Source of the DNA: Candidatus Saccharimonadales bacterium
GTDB taxonomy: Bacteria > Patescibacteriota > Saccharimonadia > Saccharimonadales > Saccharimonadaceae
Direction of reading: 5' to 3'
Assembly (NCBI GenBank): GCA_035697325.1
Contig: DASSDB010000001.1
Coordinates: 1 to 49,566, forward strand
DNA length: 49,566 bases
The position numbers and the translations under genes are program-made. Shown here piece by piece: positions 29,115-33,613 of this stretch; position 1 is the stretch's first letter; each line of letters opens with the position of its first letter. The notes beneath the pieces are model-generated. The model made no database searches. It was not told the origin of the DNA and worked only from the letters and a program-made list of their open reading frames with translations.

Positions 29115-29780
29115 TCACAGCATGTGATGCTGGCGAAAGCTAAAATGATCTAATTTTGTGATAATAATATGATCACGAAGAGGAATACCGAGGAGCTGAC
29201 CCGCCGCAGCGAGCTGTTGCGTAAGTGTAATATCCTTGGCACTTGGGCGAGCATTGCCTGAAGGATGATTGTGAGCCACGATAACTGAAGCGGCTCGGTC
29301 TACGATGGCATCACTGTAGATTTCACGTGGGTGGGTGAGAACACTATCCAATGTGCCTATAGTTATAGTCCGTTGTGCGATAAGTCGTTGCCCACCGTCT
29401 AATGCGAGACAAACGCAATATTCTTGCTGCTTATCGCGGATATCGGCAAGGCGGGTAAGGATATCTTTTTGGGTACGTAGCGGCTCAACGTCTTTTACAA
29501 GATATCTCTTGGCAAGCTCAAGAGAGGCGAGCAATTTGCCTGCGGTGGCAATACTAACGCCTTTAAGTGCGGTGAGCTTCTCAAGGTTGAGGCCGTCCGT
29601 ACCTTTTGCAAGTAATTTTTGGACCTGGCGTGCGAGATAACTGACATCAGTGCCACGGCTACCACTTCCGATAACTACTTCAAGCAGCTCGAAGTCTGAA
29701 AGGCTCGCAGTTCCTTTTCGGGCCAATTTCTCACGAGGCCGATCTTCGGTCGGCAACTGTGACACTTTTCGTCTCGCCAT
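29115..29780 (-). CDS. radC: RadC-family JAB/MPN protein
   Basis: 221 residues: an N-terminal helix-hairpin-helix region (LTALKGVSIATAGKLLASLE) and a C-terminal JAB domain with the metal motif HNHPSGNARPSAKD, plus an upstream Glu in the strand VCLALDGGQ. The role of RadC in repair is doubtful; it is a predicted metal-dependent enzyme. The start at ATG 29780 is nine bases after TACACT (29795-29790, extended TGT). An upstream in-frame ATG (29927) would place the promoter inside the gene and is rejected. Confidence 0.92.
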   Translation of the reverse strand: MARRKVSQLPTEDRPREKLARKGTASLSDFELLEVVIGSGSRGTDVSYLARQVQKLLAKGTDGLNLEKLTALKGVSIATAGKLLASLELAKRYLVKDVEPLRTQKDILTRLADIRDKQQEYCVCLALDGGQRLIAQRTITIGTLDSVLTHPREIYSDAIVDRAASVIVAHNHPSGNARPSAKDITLTQQLAAAGQLLGIPLRDHIIITKLDHFSFRQHHML

Positions 29781-29975
29781 ACTGGCAACAGTGTAACAGA
29801 AAATGTACTTTTGTCTAAGGATAATGCCAGAACGGATCAGAAACTGGCACGTATTTAATAAATATTTCATAATACGCTCGGCTTTGGGCGAGATTTTTAG
29901 TTCTAAGCTATCTATTGCCTCTGGCATATCAGGGAGAAATGAGGTAAAATAAGAGCAACGTTCTTTTGTATGCCT

Positions 29976-30158
29976 ACAGGAGATGAGCGGCTATCACCCG
30001 CGAAGTTACTGGGAAGAAATCTTTTTAGAGAGTAGAACCCAGCGTGTATACGCGACGTTACAGCAGACAATCAAGCGCTAGAAAGAATCTCTTTTTAGAA
30101 ACTGGATGGTACCGTCCGCCGCAAGCGGATTCCAGTGACTAAATAGAGATTTTTGTTT
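29976..30158 (+). promoter_or_regulatory. T-box riboswitch (ultrashort Stem I, Ile specifier)
   Basis: Stem I is GCGG / CCGC (29987-29990, 29998-30001) with loop CTATCAC that carries AUC (29993-29995), an isoleucine codon. GGGAAGAA and AGTAGAACCC (30011-30040) match a conserved pair in actinobacterial ileS T-boxes. A small stem GCGT / ACGC follows (30042-30053). The antiterminator has ACTGGA / TCCAGT, the bulge TGGTACC (30107-30113, canonical UGGNACC) and GTCCGC / GCGGAT. The whole element is embedded in a 13-bp helix, AATCTCTTTTTAG / CTAAATAGAGATT (one mismatch), followed by TTTGTTTT. It controls GNAT-ileS by sensing uncharged tRNA-Ile. Confidence 0.93.
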
Positions 30159-30173
30159 TAAGAAAGGCAAAAG

Positions 30174-30701
30174 ATGAAGACCGGCGTGTATACGATTAGA
30201 ACCATCCAAGAAGCTGATCAGCTGCCAGTTTTGGCTATGCAGGCAAAATCCTGGCTTGATACATACCCTAACCCAGAAAAAGGGGTATCGAAAGAATGGG
30301 TAGAAGCCAGGACAAAACAGTGGATGACTGATGAGAATCTGAAGAAGCGTCGAGAATTTATCCGTGCTAGTAATAAAGGTGATTCGTTATATATTGTTGC
30401 TGAGAATGAAAAGGGGGTGATCGTTGGCCTTGGAATCTGCCGTAATGAAGCGGGAAAATACCGTCTTGGTGCACTTTACGTTGATGTAGCTCATCATGGT
30501 TCGGGGGTTGCACATCGGTTGATGGAGAAACTTCTGTCTTGGGCCGGCCCAGCTACGATCGAGCTTGAAGTCGTTTCGTATAACGAGCGCGCAAAAGCAT
30601 TCTATCGTAAGTACGGATTTAGAGAAGTTGAGGGATCAGATCATATTTTGCATGAAATTTTGCCAGTTATAACAATGGTGCGGGAAGGAGAAAAGGGATG
30701 A
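30174..30701 (+). CDS. GNAT-family N-acetyltransferase
   Basis: 175 residues with the GNAT core: LYVAENE-type strands, RLGALYVDVAHHGSGVAHRL (acetyl-CoA motif A, with HHGSGVA for the usual QxxGxG/A) and NERAKAFYRKYGF near the end. It acetylates an amine, unknown which. It sits between the T-box and ileS and overlaps ileS by four bases, so its supply is tied to isoleucine status. AGAAAGG is the Shine-Dalgarno, just 3' of the terminator-like stem. Confidence 0.9.
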   Translation: MKTGVYTIRTIQEADQLPVLAMQAKSWLDTYPNPEKGVSKEWVEARTKQWMTDENLKKRREFIRASNKGDSLYIVAENEKGVIVGLGICRNEAGKYRLGALYVDVAHHGSGVAHRLMEKLLSWAGPATIELEVVSYNERAKAFYRKYGFREVEGSDHILHEILPVITMVREGEKG

Positions 30702-33613
30702 AATTCAAAGCAAATACGAGAAGGCGAGCACTTGAATACGAGAAAGCCCTCGTTGATTTCTGGAAAAAAAACAAAACGTTTGAAAAGTCGGTTGAAAATC
30801 GATCGGAAAGCAACGGCTATGTATTTTACGATGGTCCACCATTTATCACAGGCGTGCCGCATCATGGGACTCTTCTCAGCTCAATCGTTAAGGACGCAGT
30901 TCCGCGCTATCAGACAATGAAAGGCAAACGAGTAGAGCGCGTATGGGGCTGGGATACGCATGGACTGCCGGCTGAGAATTTCGTTGAAAAAAAACTTGGT
31001 ATTACTGATCGGCATGAAATCGGGACCAAAATTAGCCTTGCCGAGTATATTACGACAGCTCGTGAAAGTATGATTCAGACGGGTGGTTTATGGGAAGACA
31101 CGATTGACCGTATCGGTCGTTGGGTTGATTTTAAAGGCGCGTACAAAACCATGGATAAGGACTACATGGAAAGTGTGTGGTGGGCGTTTAAACAACTCTA
31201 CGAGAAGGGCAAAATTTATGAAGGTGAGCGCGTGCTTATGTACGACACCAAATGGGCGACGCCACTCTCAAAAGCCGAGGTAACCATGGACGCTGGCGCG
31301 TACCAGGTAGTGACTGATCCAAGCGTTTATGTGAAGTTTAAAATGACAGATGAAGATGTTTACTTATTGGCGTGGACAACAACGCCATGGACGTTGCCCG
31401 GCAATACGGCCCTTGCTATCAATAAAGAAACCGAATATGCAGAAGTTGAATTGGATGGCGAACGATTTGTCTTGGCAAAAGAATTACTTGACAAAGCTCT
31501 TACCGATGAGAAGCACAATGTGTTGCCGTATAAAGTTGTTCGTGAGCTGAAAGGCGGTGAACTTGTAGGTAAAACGTACGAACCACTTTTTGCGAACAGG
31601 GGGAAGAACGCGCATAAGATCTGGGCGGCGGATTATGTCACGACAGATTCTGGTACCGGTATCGTTCATCTTGCGCCGGCTTATGGCGAAGAGGACTTCA
31701 TATTGGCACAAGAAAAAAATATTCCGGTTATTCATGTTCTCGACGAATACGGCAAATATACTGAAGGCGACTGGCGGGGGCAAGATGTTTGGGAAACGAA
31801 CAAGGCAATTGCGAAGGAATTAAAAGAGCGCGGCGTTGTTTGGAAAATCGAGTATATTCAGCATGAATACCCTCACAACCTTCGCAATGGTAATCGCCTT
31901 ATGTACCGGGCCCACCCGAGTTGGTTTATGGATATCGATGGCCAGCGCGAAGAAATGCTAGAGCAAAATACGGAGAATATCAACTGGTTTCCAGAGCATA
32001 TTAAGCACGGTCGCTTTGAAAAAACGGTACTCCAGGCGCCCGATTGGAACCTTTCACGTGATCGTTTTTGGGCGACGGCCATGCCTGTTTGGAAAGGAAC
32101 GGATAGCAACGGTAAAGAGCATATCAAAGTTGTGGGAAGTTACGCCGAGCTGAAGGAATTAAGTGGGATTGAGCTTGAAGATTATCATCGTCCTTGGGTT
32201 GATGACATTGAATTTGATCTTGATGGCGTGCATTACAAGCGCATCGAAAAGGTGATCGATTGTTGGTTTGAGAGTGGTAGCATGCCATTTGCGCAGTTCC
32301 ACTATCCATTTGAAAACGTTGAAAAATTCGAACAGAATTTCCCCGGTGATTTCATTGTTGAATACGTGGGTCAGGTTCGCGCCTGGTTTTATTATGTGCA
32401 TGCTGTAAATGTGGGATTGTTCGGCCGCAATGCATTTAAAAATGTCATTACGACGGGTACGCTAGCGGGGAATGACGGGCGCAAAATGAGTAAAAGCTTT
32501 GGTAACTTTACCGACCCGAACGAGCTCATGGATCAGTACTCGGCTGATAGCTTGCGCTTTTTGCTCCTCAGCTCTCCGGTGTTAAACGGCGAAGACTTCG
32601 CACTCATCGATAAGGACGTAAGTGACGTTGCGCGTAAGCTGAGTATGATCTGGAACATGTATGATTTCTTAACGATGTATGCCGAAGTTGATGGTTGGGA
32701 ATGGAACGGCGACATGAATGATCCGACTGAACAGCTTAAAAATCCGCTTGATCAGTGGATTGTGAGTCGCGTTCACCAGCTCAATCTTGAGATTCAGAAA
32801 AATATGGATACGTACGATATCCCAAATGCGACCAAACCGATTTTGCCATTTATAGAAGACGCATCCAACTGGTACGTACGCCGCAGTCGCCGCCGGTTCT
32901 GGAAGAGCGACGAGCAAGAAGATAAGGACGACGCTTACAAGACGCTTCATTATGTGCTGGTTCATTTGTCGCAGATAATCGCACCATTTACACCGTTCTT
33001 AGCTGAGGAATTGTACCAGAAATTGACGGGCGGTGAGAGTGTTCATTTACTTGACTGGCCAGTTGCGGGACATATTAACGAGTTGATACTCAAAGAAATG
33101 GGGGCTATTCGCCAGGCGATTAATGACGGTCTTTCCAAGCGCGCAGCTGAAAAAGTAAAAGTTCGCCAGCCGCTTGCTAAAGCAACTCTGGTAAGTGTAT
33201 TGAGCAGTGCGGTACCCGAAAAGCTTAACGCTGAACTTGTTGAAATCGTGAAGGATGAGCTCAATGTGAAGAAAGTTGAGGCGGTGAGTGGACCTGAAGT
33301 CGGAGGCAGTCCAAATCCTTCGGTTGAATTGGATTTTGCACTGACGCCAGAACTGAAGCGCGAAGGTCTCGTGCGCGAAGTGATCCGTCATGTACAAAGT
33401 GCCCGTAAATCAGCCGGACTTAGTGTGGATGATCGGATTATCCTAGGTCTTGAAACAGCCGACAACGAATTGCAAAAAGCGATTGAAGAACACCGCGATG
33501 TCATCGCAGCGGAAACGTTAGCGAACGGCGTGAAAGACGGCGAGCTTGAATATAAGACCGAAGTAAAAATAGAGGGTATGGTTTTGGTTGTATCTCTAGA
33601 AAAAACTGCTTAA
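30698..33613 (+). CDS. ileS: Isoleucyl-tRNA synthetase (eukaryote-like type)
   Basis: 971 residues; charges tRNA-Ile. Class I landmarks: FITGVPHHGTLL in the HIGH position, a long editing domain (TTPWTLPGNTAL), and GRKMSKSFGN. The PPFxTGxPHxG form and the C-terminal domain without a zinc-finger place it with the eukaryote-like (mupirocin-insensitive) branch. The HIGH tetrad reads HHGT, without the last His. Cotranslated with the GNAT gene and under the T-box. Confidence 0.97.
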   Translation: MKFKANTRRRALEYEKALVDFWKKNKTFEKSVENRSESNGYVFYDGPPFITGVPHHGTLLSSIVKDAVPRYQTMKGKRVERVWGWDTHGLPAENFVEKKLGITDRHEIGTKISLAEYITTARESMIQTGGLWEDTIDRIGRWVDFKGAYKTMDKDYMESVWWAFKQLYEKGKIYEGERVLMYDTKWATPLSKAEVTMDAGAYQVVTDPSVYVKFKMTDEDVYLLAWTTTPWTLPGNTALAINKETEYAEVELDGERFVLAKELLDKALTDEKHNVLPYKVVRELKGGELVGKTYEPLFANRGKNAHKIWAADYVTTDSGTGIVHLAPAYGEEDFILAQEKNIPVIHVLDEYGKYTEGDWRGQDVWETNKAIAKELKERGVVWKIEYIQHEYPHNLRNGNRLMYRAHPSWFMDIDGQREEMLEQNTENINWFPEHIKHGRFEKTVLQAPDWNLSRDRFWATAMPVWKGTDSNGKEHIKVVGSYAELKELSGIELEDYHRPWVDDIEFDLDGVHYKRIEKVIDCWFESGSMPFAQFHYPFENVEKFEQNFPGDFIVEYVGQVRAWFYYVHAVNVGLFGRNAFKNVITTGTLAGNDGRKMSKSFGNFTDPNELMDQYSADSLRFLLLSSPVLNGEDFALIDKDVSDVARKLSMIWNMYDFLTMYAEVDGWEWNGDMNDPTEQLKNPLDQWIVSRVHQLNLEIQKNMDTYDIPNATKPILPFIEDASNWYVRRSRRRFWKSDEQEDKDDAYKTLHYVLVHLSQIIAPFTPFLAEELYQKLTGGESVHLLDWPVAGHINELILKEMGAIRQAINDGLSKRAAEKVKVRQPLAKATLVSVLSSAVPEKLNAELVEIVKDELNVKKVEAVSGPEVGGSPNPSVELDFALTPELKREGLVREVIRHVQSARKSAGLSVDDRIILGLETADNELQKAIEEHRDVIAAETLANGVKDGELEYKTEVKIEGMVLVVSLEKTA

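Follow-up and report, generated by a model that had tools for sequence, protein, structure and literature searches.

The window analysed here, a stretch of 49,566 nucleotides, comes from a Saccharibacterium whose IleS is most similar to the IleS of MAGs named Saccharibacteria; the genome (G000) has a size of 1.03 Mb and a completeness of 99.9%. Between a divergent gene (29115-29927) and a GNAT gene starting at 30174 lies a leader in which every part of a T-box is present. The T-box extends from 29983 to 30135, 5' of an operon of a GNAT gene and ileS, the reading frames of which share 4 bases. The features of the locus are the following.

29921-29950, plus strand: candidate promoter CTGGCA-18-TAAAAT, weak, found by consensus scan alone (9/12 matches)
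29987-30001, plus strand: ultrashort Stem I hairpin GCGG-CUAUCAC-CCGC; 4/4 pairs standard in 100% of 57 sequences, 3/4 covarying on both sides
29993-29995, plus strand: specifier AUC (Ile), invariant across the 57 aligned sequences and present in all homologues inspected
30009-30042, plus strand: Stem II, CUGGG-AAGAA...AGUAGAA-CCCAG, with S-turn AAGAA / AGUAGAA; in the lower stem 5/5 pairs covary, 96.5% paired
30043-30066, plus strand: Stem IIA/B pseudoknot; in IIA CG/CG is invariant and 1 further pair covaries, in IIB 2/2 tested pairs covary, 83% paired
30073-30077, plus strand: purine string AAGCG 5' of Stem III (RRRxG motif); A94, G95 and G97 invariant
30078-30098, plus strand: Stem III, CUAGAAAGA-AUC-UCUUUUUAG; 9/9 pairs covary, helix parts 97.8% and 87.9% paired
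30086-30098, plus strand: terminator 5' arm (strand b), comprising the Stem III loop and its 3' strand; pairs with 30139-30151
30099-30101, plus strand: AAA purines 3' of Stem III; A119 and A120 invariant
30102-30135, plus strand: discriminator/antiterminator CUGGA-UGGUACC-GUCCGC...GCGGAU-UCCAG
30102-30106/30131-30135, plus strand: A1 helix; 100% paired, 3/5 pairs covary
30107-30113, plus strand: T-box bulge UGGUACC
30114-30130, plus strand: A2 helix with a basal G-U pair; 91.8% paired, 6/6 pairs covary
30139-30151, plus strand: terminator 3' arm (strand c), CUAAAUAGAGAUU; from b:c pairing, duplex energy and fold
30150-30159, plus strand: U-tract UUUUUGUUUU, end of the terminator
30160-30167, plus strand: Shine-Dalgarno-like sequence AAGAAAGG of the GNAT gene, 3' of the U-tract
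30174-30701, plus strand: GNAT-family acetyltransferase, a passenger gene (ORF; Pfam PF00583, E 4e-14)
30698-33613, plus strand: ileS, isoleucyl-tRNA synthetase (NCBIfam TIGR00392, 780.7 bits, above cut-off)

The loop of Stem I, a stem of only about 4 bp, carries an AUC complementary to the anticodon (GAU) of the tRNA-Ile that this genome encodes (G000:C9:2503-2532, minus strand), and the UGGU of the T-box bulge complements the 3' ACCA of the same tRNA. The S-turn UAGA (U53 A54 G55 A56) is invariant in the Saccharibacteria alignment. Stem III is flanked as a T-box requires (AAGCG-StemIII-AA), the upstream purines corresponding to the RRRxG motif described before Stem III (PMC7583486). The original prediction had described the AUC in the Stem I loop and an antiterminator with a TGGTACC bulge, and all of these features are indeed found in the leader.

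For comparison, 80 ileS loci of other Saccharibacteria were gathered. At no fewer than 75 of these the element is present within ~1.2 kb upstream of ileS, usually ~70 nt 5' of the start codon; it was not found upstream of ileS at four of the 80 loci (L013, L018, L066 and L069). In 57 Saccharibacteria homologues the ON structure is standard-paired in 95.3% of cells (shuffled controls 77.9%, slid controls 33-48%), and double-sided changes occur in 29 of its 34 base pairs. None of 500 shuffles matches the real alignment on any of five measures. The invariant positions comprise AUC, the S-turn UAGA, CG/CG of IIA, the Stem III purines and UGG.A.C, which bears out the conservation of the AUC loop and bulge in related genomes that the original prediction implied. 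The invariance of AUC among the located sequences is partly built in, since the Stem I finder sought this codon; AUC was also seen by eye in L023, L040 and L073, where the finder failed. The element in the window is beyond a chance match.

Four leaders upstream of ileS (L014, L020, L023 and L073) have no Stem II and hence no S-turn, while the discriminator, the pseudoknot region and an AUC-bearing Stem I are kept. Stem II is considered essential where Stem I is short; these leaders possibly represent a natural minimal T-box.

It had also been proposed to run the Rfam T-box models on the leader. RF00230 aligns with it end to end (29974-30137), with a score of 24 bits (E 0.0018 for 411 nt), and at the gathering score of 93 no T-box is detected in the window. 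Routine annotation will therefore miss it. This cut-off is an unfair test for the ultrashort class, because actinobacterial ileS leaders fail it as well (40 bits, 32 bits and one without a match).

The original prediction did not include the downstream strand 30139-30151 or the U-tract 30150-30159. In the layout of the leader, Stem III, made of strands a and b joined by a short loop, is located before A1, and strand c followed by a U-run comes after A1'. Strand b can pair either with a, giving Stem III, or with c, and the two pairings are mutually exclusive. Double-sided changes are seen in 12 of the 13 pairs of the b:c helix, which is 84.8% paired. In 72 distinct leaders the b:c duplex formed by a leader's own partners has a mean energy of -17.8 kcal/mol, compared with -10.9 (sd 0.43) for permuted partners, and all of 2000 permutations gave values weaker than -12.4 kcal/mol. 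Stem III also folds better than its shuffles (-7.2 vs -3.5). A T-run of at least five is seen in 93% of 76 leaders, the background in random 34-nt stretches of the gathered loci being 3.7%. In the window the 94-nt switching region reaches -31.7 kcal/mol (z = -4.7), and folding of the growing RNA shows Stem III together with the antiterminator up to position 30146; from 30149 onward the terminator takes over, just when the U-tract is being synthesised. By folding, the OFF form is favoured without tRNA in 76/76 leaders, by 15.1 +/- 4.3 kcal/mol. The terminator hairpin, whose stem is AU-rich, encloses the T-box and leaves A1/A2 intact. Judged from the sequence, the output is probably an intrinsic-terminator attenuator in which the competitor of the terminator is Stem III rather than the A1/A2 helix. 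An intrinsic terminator exclusive with the tRNA-stabilised structure, the class I criterion, is found here in sequence and covariation only. What the data show directly are the elements in the sequence, the way they covary, and two pairings that exclude each other.

How does this leader compare with known T-boxes? The original prediction had assigned it to the ultrashort-Stem-I T-boxes of the actinobacterial ileS type, and a model (R1) built from 46 Saccharibacteria leaders, window included, supports the assignment by finding 3/3 actinobacterial ileS leaders (Nonomuraea, Tsukamurella and Microbacterium; 45.3, 41.7 and 39.8 bits). With the class II ileS T-boxes of M. smegmatis, M. tuberculosis and N. 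farcinica it shares the ultrashort Stem I whose apical loop carries AUC, the Stem II S-turn, the IIA/B pseudoknot, the purine-flanked Stem III and the UGGN bulge. Unlike in these, sequestration of the SD was not found in the leader and a U-tract terminator follows; moreover, the switching strand is here the 3' arm of Stem III. The longest T-run in the three actinobacterial leaders is two, so that the sensor is common to both groups and the output probably different. With the Firmicutes class I T-boxes (RF00230; glyQS, tyrS) the leader has in common the antiterminator/terminator logic, the intrinsic terminator and the discriminator core, but it lacks the long Stem I and hence the interdigitated double T-loop that binds the tRNA elbow. 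In the class I model the terminator is formed by the 3' strands of A1/A2 (PMC7583486), whereas here A1/A2 stays intact inside the terminator and Stem III is surrendered.

R1 finds two T-boxes in the window's own genome, the one ahead of ileS and another ahead of thrS (L001/L083; G000:C2:6674-6819, minus strand). Both have a short Stem I, a discriminator and a U-run terminator ahead of the gene. The thrS T-box differs in its specifier (ACC, in a short hairpin GCGG-CCCAACCAU-CCGC), in its bulge (UGGAACC, i.e., UGGA, which predicts a discriminator U in tRNA-Thr) and in its separate downstream terminator hairpin, CAUGCGAUA..UAUCGCAUG-UUUUU.

The leader is very probably a tRNA-Ile-sensing T-box that controls transcription through intrinsic termination; we infer that it binds the tRNA, senses its aminoacylation and terminates along the following lines. 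As RNA polymerase traverses the leader, Stems I and II would recognise the anticodon GAU, and the discriminator, consisting of Stem III and A1/A2 with the UGGU bulge, would form during transcription. The ACCA end of an uncharged tRNA would pair with UGGU and the purines flanking Stem III would lock on, such that Stem III would retain the switching strand 30086-30098 and GNAT-ileS would be transcribed. With charged tRNA or none, Stem III would not be held, 30139-30151 would capture the switching strand, the OFF helix would extend around the antiterminator and the polymerase would halt at the U-tract. The match between specifier and synthetase across CPR (see below) argues for this reading. A covariation of the N in UGGN with the discriminator base of tRNA-Ile was considered and rejected: tRNA-Ile was detected in 7/19 genomes and all seven end in ACCA, including those of L015, L028 and L010, whose T-boxes have UGGA or UGGC. 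A second tRNA pattern did not find tRNA-Ile in 11 further genomes.

Ultrashort Stem I elements have so far been associated with translational control, and transcriptional T-boxes are generally thought to need contact with the tRNA elbow in order to bind fast enough (PMC7583486); both points count against the terminator reading, as do the AU-rich terminator stem and the N of UGGN, which does not follow the tRNA discriminator base. The original prediction likewise had the switch act on translation, which would make the OFF hairpin hide the ribosome binding site as in actinobacteria. This is in keeping with a sensor of the actinobacterial ileS kind, with the three actinobacterial leaders that have no T-run above two, with the potential of the Nonomuraea SD to pair with the A1' strand region (-16.6 kcal/mol) and with the position of the OFF hairpin end near the SD. 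However, translational control would need no U-run, yet a U-run is conserved as part of a covarying terminator. In the 49 Saccharibacteria leaders with ileS directly downstream, complementarity between SD and T-box is no greater than for a shuffled SD (mean difference -0.17, sd 1.41), and the distance of the SD from the U-run ranges from 9 to 54 nt. A conserved anti-SD or other sequestrator hiding the SD was not found in the Saccharibacteria leaders, where a U-tract terminator is present instead. We consequently regard a purely translational switch as quite improbable. A dual mode, in which the same hairpin terminates and occludes the SD, is also unlikely, if a little less so: in most leaders the SD comes only ~9-30 nt after the start of the U-run and the hairpin might hinder ribosomes too, but the SD has no direct pairing partner and its distance is not conserved. 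That the element is a decayed or non-functional relic can hardly be reconciled with an invariant specifier and bulge and with pervasive covariation in both competing folds, even if its Rfam score is low and four relatives have no Stem II.

The proposed control of a GNAT-ileS operon holds insofar as the T-box precedes the two overlapping frames; the GNAT gene itself is a variable part of it. An extra gene is found between T-box and ileS in 26 of ~75 Saccharibacteria leaders and is a GNAT gene in 6 (the window, L022, L039, L042, L053 and L062), CYTH-like in 4 and cupin-like in 2, the latter two names coming from reading the sequences, without a search. GNAT is one among several passengers and no defined partner of ileS. 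The gap between T-box and ileS (30174-30701 in the window) appears as an insertion hot spot for unrelated genes at these 26 loci, which besides those mentioned include DNA-glycosylase-like, IMPase-like and SDR-like genes and small acidic ORFs; some of these names were assigned by eye.

Beyond the Saccharibacteria, R1 matches 128/380 Patescibacteria genomes in 101/314 genera. Within the family of the window's genome almost every genome matches, and the majority of matches fall in other classes. For 100 non-Saccharibacteria matches (L113-L212) together with the thrS locus of the window's genome (L083), downstream genes were clustered and representatives of each cluster named with NCBIfam. They are ileS (46), valS (33), aspS (10), lysS (5), thrS (3), tyrS (1) and argG (1); of the remaining two, one has a passenger gene first and one is ended by the contig end. 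Specifiers were called by an automatic hairpin rule; reading them off the CM alignment was discarded, as it fails for loops longer than those of the model, e.g., in valS. By this rule the specifier is AUC in 35 of 46 ileS leaders (next commonest 4), GUC in 25 of 33 valS leaders (next commonest 2), AAC or GAC in 10/10 aspS leaders, ACC in 2/3 thrS leaders, UAC for tyrS and AAG in only 1/5 lysS leaders; in most ileS and valS leaders that the rule missed, the cognate codon is visible by eye. The aspS genes (L141, L148, L159, L163, L175, L182, L188, L196, L204 and L208) mostly encode the non-discriminating kind of AspRS, and AAC/GAC specifiers fit an enzyme that would serve both tRNA-Asn and tRNA-Asp. 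A U-run follows shortly 3' in about nine-tenths of these leaders; two GC-rich ileS leaders, L113 and L171, have none. A crude classification of platforms gives 36 with a flanking helix as here, 28 of the classical A1'/A2' type and 17 with a separate hairpin. CPR T-boxes thus seem to act chiefly on transcription, via several platforms, and such diversity within one phylum is useful for the study of how T-box output evolves. As a separate observation, the IleS of L137 and L166 carries an inserted phosphoglycerate-mutase/phosphatase-like domain at residues ~485-660 (NCBIfam cobC/PspA-like matches).

Saccharibacteria live on actinobacteria, and the original prediction raised the possibility that the switch was acquired from such a host; this is a question of origin, not of mechanism, and could concern the leader with or without ileS. 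The lifestyle and the homology of the sensor with actinobacterial ileS T-boxes speak for it. On the other hand, the element is near-universal in Saccharibacteria and occurs in many other CPR families, mostly outside the class and with several specificities. In the IleS tree, which includes few non-CPR rows and is uncertain in some of its deep branches, the Saccharibacteria form one clade (100/100) nested within CPR and adjoining other CPR IleS, with the included Actinobacteria elsewhere. Furthermore, distances between T-boxes are correlated with those between IleS proteins (r = 0.39; the highest value among permutations is 0.24). Placement in the tree and correlation of distances make it unlikely that an actinobacterial host donated the element recently, and host acquisition as such is very doubtful; a deep, ancient transfer into an early CPR ancestor is conceivable.

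In the open-access literature we found no earlier link of T-boxes or riboswitches with leaders of Saccharibacteria, Patescibacteria, TM7 or CPR; one paper on CPR mentions riboswitches, but only as a tool still to be developed. The leaders reveal a blind spot of annotation: such elements escape the Rfam cut-off, and the class II search of TBDB is by its own description confined to Actinobacteria. It is likely that ultrashort T-boxes constitute a major, hitherto unreported regulator of aaRS genes in CPR, which in Saccharibacteria would combine termination without elbow contact, an antiterminating Stem III and a terminator enclosing the intact acceptor-binding hairpin. An ultrashort T-box that has good phylogenetic support and carries an intrinsic terminator allows a direct test of the elbow-contact rule (PMC7583486). 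In a group for which genetic tools are in demand, the leader also provides a natural tRNA-responsive switch, and it hints at the way in which genome-reduced bacteria living on other bacteria may sense their amino-acid supply.
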